Below are positions 27,420 through 54,115 of a stretch of DNA of 64,000 bases, piece by piece. The DNA is from Candidatus Altimarinota bacterium. Lineage in GTDB: Bacteria > Patescibacteriota > Gracilibacteria > Absconditabacterales > Absconditicoccaceae. The stretch lies in NCBI GenBank assembly GCA_021734475.1, contig JAIPIU010000001.1:124001-188000 (forward strand), given 5' to 3'. The stretch's first letter is position 1. Each line of letters starts with the position of its first letter. Position numbers and translations under genes: made by a program. The notes under the pieces were generated by a model that made no database searches, had not been told where the DNA came from, and saw only the letters and a program-made list of their open reading frames with translations.

Positions 27420-28649
27420 ATGTTTCAAATATCCTATTCTCCCAATCTTAAGTGAGAGGTATCTATATCATGAAGTAAAAATGCAGCACTACCAATAGTA
27501 GTAGCAAATTATCTTATTTGAAATAAAGTTAAATTACTAAATAAACCAAATATAGTAGATATAGCTAACATGGAAAAACTTGCCGATGAAGCATTAGAGA
27601 AATCACAAGATTTCTTTGATCTTACTTCAGAACTTGCTACCAAATTTAGAGCATCTATATTACTTATACCATTATGACTTCATAGATATGGGAAAGTAAA
27701 ATTTGTCGGTACTTGATGATGCAAAATAGGTAAAAGACCATTAGACTCTTTTGATGATGCTCTTACAAAGGCGTGAATAACTATCACAAACGATGAATTC
27801 AAAACATATCAAGTTACATGAAAGCCAAAAAAAAATATAATGCTACAAGAATTTTCTGTAACGACTATAGAAGCTTTGATTACATATCTGGCATTTTTAC
27901 CTGATGTAGAATATGAAATTAATATTTATATGGTAGCTACAGAACCTCACGTAAAAAATCTGATTTGATTTTTGAATAATGCTTGAGCTAATATCAAATT
28001 ATGAATAGATCATACAATCACTATTAGACCGACAAAAATTAATATACAAAATTCTGAATTTAAAATAATTTCAGATTATATAGAAGCTGGTACTTATTTT
28101 GCTATCTGAGCTTGAGCTGATAATAGTGAATTAATCATAAAAGATTTTGATGTAGATGATTTATCATCTATATATAGTGTGTCAGACAAAATTTGAATAA
28201 ATTTCAAAATATTAGATAAACATTCTATTAGGGTAAATTCAAACAATAAAGCAAATTACAAAGCTATAAAATTTGAAACCAGAATTTATCCATGATTTGC
28301 TACTGATTTACAGTCAATATTTGGTACATTGCTTACACAAGCAAACTGAATATCAAAAATATTTGAGACTTTATATGAATGAAGATTTGGATATTTAACT
28401 GAGCTTGAAAATTTATGAGCAAAAGTAGAAATTTTAAATCCTCATGAAGCAATAGTTATTTGACCTAGTAAATTACATTGATGATATGTAACTAGTACAG
28501 ATCTTAGATGATGATGAGCTATGGTTCTAGCATGAATTATGGCTAAATGAATTACCAATATTATGAGTGAAGAAATTATAGCTAGATGATATGCTGATAT
28601 AGTTGCTAAATTAAAATCAATTTGAGTAAATATAGAACAAGTAACCTAG
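27420..28649 (+). CDS. murA: UDP-N-acetylglucosamine 1-carboxyvinyltransferase
   Basis: 409 residues. First committed step of peptidoglycan synthesis: transfer of enolpyruvate from PEP to UDP-GlcNAc. Evidence: VSISGSKNAALPIVVANYL at the N-terminus, the catalytic cysteine at about residue 101 in VGTGGCKIGKRPLD, and the C-terminal LHGGYVTSTDLRGGGAMVLA. Length is normal. Stops at TAG, which is the first base pair of a repeat cluster (CTAGTCATTGCGAGG), so a repeat abuts or supplies the stop. Not part of a cell-wall operon here. Confidence 0.9.
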
Positions 28650-28826
28650 TCATTGCGAGGTACGAAGCAATCTTCTTCTCATCGTCATTGCTAGGTACGA
28701 AGCAATCTTATATAATACAGTAAGATAGCTTCGTCGTTTTACTTCTCGCTATGACAGTTTGTTAGTCATTGCGAGGCACGAAGCAATCTTCTTCTGATAG
28801 TCATTGCGAAGTATGAAGCAATCTTA
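28649..28826. repeat. cluster of five GTCATTGCGAGG-family units
   Basis: Four direct units (TCATTGCGAGGTACGAAGCA at 28650, variants from about 28684, 28764 and 28800) and one inverted, diverged unit (AGATAGCTTCGTCG..CGCTATGACAG) in between. Fills the whole gap between murA and the GIY-YIG gene. Confidence 0.88.
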
Positions 28827-28842
28827 TATATTAATTAAATAT

Positions 28843-30804: not shown

Positions 30805-30810
30805 CCTACA

Positions 30811-30900
30811 GTCATTCCGGCGTCAAGTATTGCAGCCGGAATCTAAAGAAAAGATAATAATAGTAGATTCCCGCTTCCAAACAATAATCCGGGAATGACA
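30811..30900. repeat. two GTCATTCCGG-family units head to head
   Basis: GTCATTCCGGCGTCAAGTAT, TGCAGCCGGAATCT, then the inverted unit AGATTCCCGCTTCC..CCGGGAATGACA. Fills the gap between korA and korB. Confidence 0.85.
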
Positions 30901-31532: not shown

Positions 31533-31582
31533 TGTTATTCCGGTCCAACACCTCAAGAGGTGTAGGATTGCAACCGGAATCT
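31533..31582. repeat. GTCATTCCGG-family repeat with nested CACCTC-AA-GAGGTG hairpin
   Basis: TGTTATTCCGGTCCAACACC, TCAAGAGGTGTAGGATTGCA, ACCGGAATCT. A smaller perfect palindrome sits in the loop of the larger one. Directly follows korB. Confidence 0.82.
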
Positions 31583-31600
31583 TAACAATATTTCTTTTCT

Positions 31601-32437
31601 ATGTATAATAAATGATTCCGAATAAAGAAAAATACCTGAAATAACTCATTTTCTTATAATTTAAGAAAAGAAAATAATCCTGAACCTCAAATTTACGTTA
31701 CAAATTTAATTGAATGAACTATCGATGATATTCAGATTTGAGATAAAATTGTCTTTGAAGAAATTGATTCAAAATGACAAATACAATCTTTTGTATGACT
31801 TAAAAATTTCATAAAATTCTTTTTTAACCGTCATTCCGGTGTTATTATGAAATTACAACCGAAATCTATTAATTCAGATTTTATTCCAATCTACATTATT
31901 GACAACCACAACCATGCATTATTTTTTCGATATCAAGAATTATTCAGTTGAAATATCTCTAAATGAATAGATCTTATCCACATAGACCAACATACAGACA
32001 TGAATGTGGCCCCCTTAAGAAAGGGGGGTAGGGGGGATTCGTTTAATAATTTACAAGACATTTTCCACTTCACAAACTATGATTGTAATGTATGAAATTT
32101 TATACAACCCGCCATCCAAAACTGACTAATTTCTAAAATAACTCAAATAAATACTGAGTATAAATTAAATAACTATAGTCATTGCGAGGAGTATAACGAC
32201 AAAGCAATCTTAAATAAAAAAAAGATTGCCACGCCTACGGCTCGCAATGAAAGTGGATTTATCTTAGATATCGACTTAGATTTTCGACATCCTCAAATGT
32301 GAATAGAGGAGTATAACAAAACAATTCAAATAACAAAAAGTCTGATCTCACAAGCAAGTTTAGTTACAATAGCAACCTCACCATATTTCCTAGATCAGAC
32401 TTTAGCTATCAAAATTTTAAAAGATATTTTTGTTTAA
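31601..32437 (+). CDS. UPF0489-like protein carrying three in-frame repeat insertions
   Basis: 278 residues, single open frame. The core pattern is UPF0489: IDNHNHALFFRYQEL, LIHIDQHTDMN, NVGNFIQPAIQNGLIS, FILDIDLDFRH (metal-binding Asp/His of an arginase-like fold) and IATSPYFLDQ. Three segments do not belong to the family and coincide with palindromic repeats in the DNA: residues about 77-89 (NRHSGVIMKLQPKS), about 136-147 (APLRKGGRGDS) and about 193-217 (SHCEEYNDKAILN..IATPTARNES). All preserve the frame. Function of UPF0489 is unknown. N-terminal 60 residues are family-specific or additional. Confidence 0.78.
31830..31867 (+). repeat. GTCATTCCGG-family repeat inside the UPF0489-like gene
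   Basis: GTCATTCCGGTGTTATTATG, AAATTACAACCGAAATCT. First of three repeats in this reading frame; lies between the N-terminal part and the IDNHNH motif. Confidence 0.85.
32008..32040 (+). repeat. GGGGG-type palindromic repeat inside the UPF0489-like gene
   Basis: GGCCCCCTTAAGAAAGGGGG, GTAGGGGGGATTC. Very GC-rich against its surroundings and self-complementary (CCCCCTT..AAGGGGG). Related GGAGG elements lie at 48.7, 50.4, 53.6 and 57.4 kb. Confidence 0.85.
32178..32252 (+). repeat. inverted pair of GTCATTGCGAGG-family repeats inside the UPF0489-like gene
   Basis: GTCATTGCGAGGAGTATAAC, GACAAAGCAATCTT, short A-rich loop, AAGATTGCCACGCCTACGGC, TCGCAATGAAAG. 75 nt, a multiple of three, translated throughout. 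Confidence 0.86.
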
Positions 32438-50423: not shown

Positions 50424-50487
50424 AGTCATTCCGGCAGTTTGTCCTCCTTTGAAAAAGGAGGGGTGGTGCAAAGCACAGGAGGATTTT
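50424..50487. repeat. chimeric repeat: GTCATTCCGGC half-site joined to a GGAGG-type palindrome
   Basis: GTCATTCCGGCAGTTT runs straight into GTCCTCCTTTGAAAAAGGAG, GGGTGGTGCAAAGCACAGGA, GGATTT. Suggests one element inserted into another. The rest of the 154-nt gap is plain AT-rich DNA. Confidence 0.8.
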
Positions 50488-53404: not shown

Positions 53405-54115
53405 TTAATTCTTTAATCATATCACAAACTCTCATTTAATTGGGAGTTTTTTTTCTTTTACGAGATTTATTACTTCATCCAGAGTTCAAGTAATTTGTTG
53501 TTCAAACATTTTACTCAATTCTCTAGAAACCGAAATCTGACCATTAAATCAGAGTTCTTTCAACTCTTTCAGTAACTTCTCAAATCTATGTACAGACTCA
53601 TAAAAGAATACAGGAATTTTTTTGTCCTCCTTTTTTAAAGGAGGGGTGGTGCGAAGCACAGGAGGATTTATAATATTTTTTAAAGCTGTTTGTCTCCCTT
53701 TCTTCTGTGGTAAAAATCATAAATAAACAAACTCTGATGTATCAAATCACGCTCATACTACAGCCGGAATTAAAGCATTAGCTCAAGGTAATATAGAGTA
53801 GGGGATTCAGTTTTCATTACATAGCTTTATCATAGATTTTCATGGATCAGAAAGTCCAGGTGTTCCAGCTTCAGATACAAGTCATATATCGTTTTCTTTT
53901 AATATATTTAAATAATGATTTAGTTTTCACTGACTAGTAAAACTAGTTAATGACAAAAATTGTTTATCTTTGTAATCTATTTCATACATAGCAAGAAGTT
54001 TCATAGTAGTCCTAGTATCCTCGCATATTAGATATTTAAGCTCTTTAAATAGATTCAAAGCACGAACTGTAATATCATCTTTATTTCAGATAGGAGTAGG
54101 TATAAAATATAACAT
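53405..54115 (-). CDS. rsmI: 16S rRNA (cytidine-2'-O)-methyltransferase RsmI with in-frame repeat insertion
   Basis: 236 residues. MLYFIPTPIGNKDDITVRAL, YLICEDTRTTMKLLAM, ENDIGLVSEAGTPGLSDPGK, ILPGANALIPAVVGAGFDTS and FFYESVHRFEKLLKEL are RsmI motifs of the tetrapyrrole-methylase fold; it methylates C1402 of 16S rRNA. Between GRQTALKNI and KKIPVFFYES, about residues 150-165 (NPPVLRTTPPLKKED) are encoded by a GGAGG-type palindromic repeat and have no counterpart in the family. Adjacent to, and convergent with, the previous gene with no gap. Confidence 0.88.
53427..53455 (+). terminator. intrinsic terminator inside the rsmI 3' end
   Basis: AACTC-TCATTTAATTG-GGAGTT followed by T8. Terminates the plus-strand gene 52946-53404 and is translated on the other strand as the RsmI C-terminus (EKKLPIKGEF region). 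Confidence 0.75.
53624..53667 (-). repeat. GGAGG-type palindromic repeat inside rsmI, in frame
   Basis: Plus strand GTCCTCCTTTTTTAAAGGAG, GGGTGGTGCGAAGCACAGGA, GGAT. Nearly identical to the intergenic copy at 50438-50487. Nested GTGC-GAA-GCAC hairpin. Confidence 0.88.

Follow-up and report, generated by a model that had tools for sequence, protein, structure and literature searches.

The UPF0489 gene and its three inserts

The window analysed here, a stretch of 64,000 nucleotides within contig C3, belongs to a 1.17 Mb genome in which TGA is read as glycine. It contains a gene whose product matches the UPF0489 family of Pfam with 56.9 bits, against a curated cut-off of 27 (Table 1). The frame is open under code 25, with 11 TGA codons read as glycine. 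With regard to function, the NCBIfam model of the specific peptide arginases FlmR/OhkR (NF052474) matches the protein with an E-value of 2.5e-14, but the score of 53 bits is below the cut-off of 350, which is why the enzyme is named arginase-like only. The best fold match of the predicted structure in the PDB is likewise a peptide arginase, OspR (8brp), at a distant level (E 5e-5, TM-score about 0.45). The HxDxHxD and DxDxDF motifs are conserved in the alignment with homologues.

Table 1. Genes and repeat elements discussed in the text, with positions in the window.
Feature	Position	Strand	Description
Intergenic family C copies	28647-28833	+	Tandem duplication of half-element pair; repeat-listing families D1 and D4
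Intergenic family A copy near the UPF0489 gene	30808-30869	+	Repeat-listing family D3
Family A element with nested hairpin	31537-31583	+	Intergenic; ATTCCGG..CCGGAATCTT; nhmmer match to the 3' half
UPF0489 / peptide-arginase-like gene	31601-32437	+	278 aa, code 25; Pfam PF12640, E 4e-15
Site 1: family A half-element	31830-31866	+	Residues ~77-89 (RHSGVIMKLQPKS); nhmmer E 0.0022 with the family A model
Site 2: family B element	32009-32039	+	Residues ~136-147 (VAPLRKGGRGDS); stem CCCCCTTAAGAAAGGGGGG, CCCCCTT..AAGGGGG
Site 3: family C full palindrome	32178-32250	+	Residues ~193-217 (SHCEEYNDKAILNKKKIATPTARNE); two half-element matches, E 7e-8 and 7e-4
Family B copy outside called genes	50438-50486	+	Repeat-listing family D6
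rsmI (16S rRNA 2'-O-methyltransferase)	53405-54115	-	Interrupted in frame; NCBIfam TIGR00096 above cut-off
Family B element in rsmI	53621-53669	+	Read on the minus strand; 92% identical to 50438-50486; repeat-listing family D6

Three segments of this protein, each corresponding to a different repeat family, are missing from most homologues, which align across the sites. The insert at site 1 is a weathered half-copy of GTCATTCCGGC..GCAGCCGGAATCT; it is degenerate, gives the weakest match of the three, and its own stem is not above shuffles. In the structural model, it lies in the loop of a beta-hairpin (strands 70-76 and 94-100), where the pLDDT falls to 83. Element B at site 2, with a folding energy of -13.8 kcal/mol, immediately follows the metal-site motif HIDQHTD, and the pLDDT is 66 over residues 141-150. 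Element C at site 3 is the palindrome GTCATTGCGAGG..GCAATCTT..AAGATTGC..CTCGCAATGA, which folds with -25.1 kcal/mol and is located between helix 186-190 and strand 220-225, with a pLDDT of 55-67 over residues 191-220. As the mean pLDDT of the model, based on a 29-sequence alignment, is 90, the inserts appear as low-confidence loops in an otherwise confident structure. The initial annotation had described in-frame inserts of three families at these residues and had raised the question of their placement in surface loops. The repeat matches, the open code-25 frame, the Pfam match and the alignment to homologues bear out the former, and the structure prediction is in line with the latter.

A coding score of 11.9, under that of the neighbours, and the failure to find a UPF0489 match in the genus-mate G002 and in several family members, which indicates that the gene is dispensable, would both fit a decaying pseudogene that gathers repeats where selection is absent. 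We consider this reading very improbable: none of the three insertions breaks the frame, the metal-site motifs are intact, the model reaches a confidence of 90, and a like pattern is observed in valS, alaS, pheT and other core genes. The coding statistics, the intact frame and the conserved metal-site motifs argue instead for a gene that is probably translated. When the 24 in-gene elements of the genome (see below) were placed at random over the coding sequence, 0.2% of trials yielded a gene with all three families, and 0.9% yielded at least one gene with three hits. Such rarity suggests that the UPF0489 gene is a favoured or unusually permissive target. Directly upstream of its start codon lies the family A element with a nested hairpin, which could affect expression.

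Repeat families in the genome

The survey, which covered all but about 1.5 kb of the genome sequence, gave approximately 94 merged loci for family A, 17 for family B and 40 for family C. Most are intergenic (82 A, 10 B and 34 C loci), in agreement with the initial annotation, according to which these families also occur between genes. Exact core motifs were found 67 times for A and 48 times for C, compared with 0 in the reversed genome, and the B stem was found at 8 places with at most one mismatch (control 0). Most elements are either half-elements, about 35 nt long, or full palindromes with a length of about 73-105 nt. Rfam gave no match within the 64-kb window. At 28647-28833, the two copies of the C half-element pair are 90% identical and 116 bases apart.

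Elements inside other genes

A simple gene caller predicted 1043 genes, with 86% of the sequence coding, and elements located at least 30 bases from each gene end were counted as in-gene. In this manner, 24 elements were found inside 20 predicted genes. The hosts identified by family models include valS, alaS, pheT, uvrC, ruvB, rsmI, rsmA, trmD, rimO and xth, as well as tatD, comEC, dus and a pyruvyl transferase; several of them should be indispensable. Two A elements are present in valS, and uvrC (C4:135244-137017) comprises two A elements in frame together with a C-like peptide, VIAKNEAIS, adjoining one of them. The insertion had initially been presented as a case of one gene. This remains valid for the meeting of three families in the UPF0489 gene but not for in-frame insertion as such, which is genome-wide.

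The density of elements is 24 per Mb in coding sequence and 781 per Mb outside, so insertion within genes is strongly depleted, with frame-breaking insertions being under-counted since genes were called on the basis of open frames. A blastx search around the 126 intergenic elements, covering the genes with an orthologue in the genus-mate G001, showed no gene clearly split by an element. Nine pairs of hits were rejected as split genes: the two that span an element were antisense noise, and the remaining ones looked, by their coordinates, like paralogues or weak overlaps.

These observations bear on whether the inserts, although present in the DNA, are skipped, being either excised from the RNA or bypassed by the ribosome at a hairpin. 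Bypassing elements of such a kind are known in some mitochondria, and the hairpins of elements C and B in the UPF0489 gene are strong. A skipped insert would nevertheless be free to break the frame or to carry TAA or TAG, yet the search around the intergenic elements yielded no clear split gene. The in-gene elements found also keep the frame, but this is not decisive against skipping, as gene calls favour open frames. Taken together, we regard skipping as very unlikely. We infer that the inserts are translated and would be retained in the protein.

Comparison with a genus-mate

The genome G001, of which 0.99 Mb were compared, belongs to the same genus, and its orthologues are about 75% identical. 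For valS, ruvB, trmD, rsmI and rsmA, the G001 orthologues show no counterpart of the element, whereas the inserts of alaS, xth, dus, the pyruvyl transferase gene and site 3 of the UPF0489 gene are common to both genomes. Analysed on its own by the same method, G001 exhibits elements of families A, C and D within its genes, 17 in all. At site 3 of the G001 UPF0489 gene (L009), two palindromes of another family are nested inside element C. These nested palindromes, CCTGCC..GGCAGG with the peptide PAGRQ, also occur inside other G001 genes. At the rsmI site, the terminal part of another type of repeat, CTTCGCTCAGAATGAC, can be read by eye in G001. Target-site duplications for A, B and C were not found in this comparison, in which the boundaries are too diverged.

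Five genes have an insert in common with G001. Where their codons specify the same amino acid in both genomes, the third base agrees in 69 of 76 cases inside the inserts and in 856 of 1181 outside (p 2e-4 for codons pooled over the five genes). This higher likeness is not what the simple neutral decay of an old insertion predicts; it points to gene conversion among copies, to a later insertion at a site common to both genomes, or to DNA-level constraint. The last of these is related to the idea that the inserts have been recruited, as a useful peptide or as a DNA or RNA signal, and are retained by selection. Indeed, the shared inserts of xth, alaS, dus and UPF0489 are unusually alike at silent sites, which suggests DNA-level constraint or repair. 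However, gene conversion among copies would also account for the silent-site identity, and the peptide is not conserved, since families, frames and peptides vary between species at one loop. Recruitment thus appears unlikely. We infer that the elements move at the DNA level and that the inserts are neutral for function.

The same loops in other homologues

In the class, 59 homologues were compared; their extra segments of at least 7 aa are located mainly at residues ~46, 57, 76, 117, 142 and 194. A stem above shuffles (p <= 0.05) is present in 13 of the 23 homologue inserts, those of the window included, compared with 19 of 219 core windows. A further, independent set comprised 80 named loci and the window. 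Here, segments of at least 8 aa occur in 14 of 39 sequences from Patescibacteria, a few of these records being assigned by inference, and in 0 of 42 from other phyla, at four loops only; the Fisher p of 8e-6 treats the sequences as independent and is hence optimistic.

Individual homologues illustrate how one loop can hold different elements. At site 2, a canonical B element is found in G047, whose genome holds four further copies at other places, and two B-like palindromes are found in G123. At site 1, L099, from genome G003, carries an element of the C type. The families, frames and peptides found at one loop differ between species. The stem types of the homologue inserts recur elsewhere in several host genomes, with controls at or near zero. 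Homologues with the same segments and no relation to repeats, which would have spoken against the initial annotation, were not encountered: most of the extra segments at these sites are other palindromes, and those checked recur in their own genomes.

Ordinary loop variation, repetitive by chance, can be given almost no weight as an explanation of the extra segments. The degenerate match of element A in the UPF0489 gene (E 0.002) would be compatible with it, but it is contradicted by the absence of exact core motifs from the reversed control and by the excess of stems in homologue inserts over core windows.

Origin and retention of the elements

Families A, B and C are very probably non-autonomous palindromic elements whose in-gene copies are kept if the frame and the fold are spared. 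Elements of this REP/RPE-like type may have spread through the genome of this member of the SR1/Gracilibacteria group, landing mostly between genes. A copy within a gene would be retained only if it preserves the frame, contains no TAA or TAG and lies in a tolerant surface loop, and selection would remove the copies that break the frame or the fold. The UPF0489 protein may offer several tolerant loops, which could account for the three elements that it has collected. Reading TGA as glycine would widen the set of tolerated insertions, because one palindrome end (..AATGAC) supplies TGA in some frames.

For none of the three families was an autonomous partner found. The genome contains Y1 (RAYT-like) transposase genes, one intact (C4:122911-123412) and one broken (C1:2613-2969); copies of A, B or C flank neither of them, and a RAYT link was not found. 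The intact gene is located near CACCCGGGTG palindromes, which may be its own elements.

TGA as a glycine codon within the repeats

The sequence CCGGAATGAC is the end of element A on one strand, and CTCGCAATGAC is the end of C. For family A, the antisense frame DSG..PEG is open under the standard code in 18 of 88 intergenic copies, and in another 59 it is open only when TGA is read through. Inspection of the codons revealed an in-frame TGA supplied by the element itself in about 12 of the 24 in-gene elements (7 of 12 for A, 3 of 7 for B and 2 of 5 for C). As TGA is a stop in the standard code, these copies would end the protein there. None of the three UPF0489 inserts contains an element-supplied in-frame TGA, so recoding explains part of the genome-wide pattern and not the UPF0489 gene. 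Both the number of affected genes, about 20, and the opening by code 25 of frames which, in the standard code, the repeats would close go beyond the initial annotation.

Based on these observations, we tentatively propose that the reassignment of TGA to glycine may have altered which palindromes genes tolerate, and that recoded Gracilibacteria might thereby gather translated repeats, with their proteins repeatedly gaining loops at the same places. We hold this to be possible, though somewhat short of probable. If it were true, element ends that elsewhere supply a stop would become coding sequence. The system offers a direct way to ask whether a change of genetic code alters the tolerance to mobile DNA.

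Comparison with known palindromic elements

The closest known kind appears to be the Rickettsia palindromic element (RPE) or intragenic REP, likened here by kind. RPEs, including RPE-4 and RPE-6, are short palindromes that form several families in one genome and lie both between genes and, in frame, within them; their host proteins work, and tRNA and DNA repair functions are among them (PMC10969869, PMC3733652). The elements described here are similarly dispersed palindromic families, located between genes and in frame in otherwise normal protein genes. The parallel with RPEs drawn in the initial annotation is thus supported by elements that are dispersed, in frame, missing in most homologues and situated in low-confidence loops. 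They differ from RPEs in host group and genetic code, in size (about 35 or 73-105 nt here, compared with about 150 bp cited for RPEs), in that about half of the in-gene copies need TGA to be read as glycine, and in the presence of three families in one gene. Genes hit twice have been described, namely uvrB of R. conorii and uvrA of O. terrae (PMC3733652).

The CGTC REPs, which lack a transposase (PMC3733652, Di Nocera et al. 2013), appear to resemble families A and C in several respects: a GTC tag followed by a stem starting with AT, frequent inverted dimers, no flanking transposase and genic copies. The tag of the CGTC type is CGTC or a variant, TGTC or CCTC. In A and C, GTC is constant and the preceding base is T, A or C, with C as the first tag base in a minority, 17 of 112 for A and 9 of 48 for C, unlike CGTC REPs. 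As for the 8-9 bp AT-start stem of the CGTC type, ATTCCGGC/GCCGGAAT of family A fits, whereas ATTGC/GCAAT of family C is shorter and its continuation is broken. The loops are longer and variable here, compared with 4-5 bases in CGTC REPs, and the tail is CTT or CTA in place of CCA. Patescibacteria are not listed in the CGTC REP paper (PMC3733652). With the GTAG REP/RAYT systems, the genome shares the Y1 transposase genes, one intact and one broken; in contrast to those systems, there is no GTAG tag, and the intact gene lies near palindromes other than A, B or C. Wolbachia palindromic elements and Coxiella MITEs, which are small palindromes in or near genes (named in PMC3733652, PMC5896051), are likened here by description.

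A literature search, with most subscription journals outside its scope, found no report of palindromic insertion in Patescibacteria or the candidate phyla radiation, and a search with the C core sequence returned nothing relevant. What appears to be new, relative to the literature searched, is the host group, the recoded organism, the three families in one gene and the recurrent use of the same loops. The best-known cases of in-frame palindromes come from Rickettsia and a number of other bacteria rich in REPs; here they are found in core genes of a distant, recoded lineage. Unrelated families converge on the same loops of one protein, and orthologous sites in a genus-mate are without the element. 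These provide natural replicates, partly datable, for the old question of whether such inserts are carried along neutrally or supply new protein sequence.

DNA repair genes are frequent hosts of REPs in a published survey (PMC3733652), and uvrC, with its two A elements and C-like segment, is a DNA repair host of the same sort.
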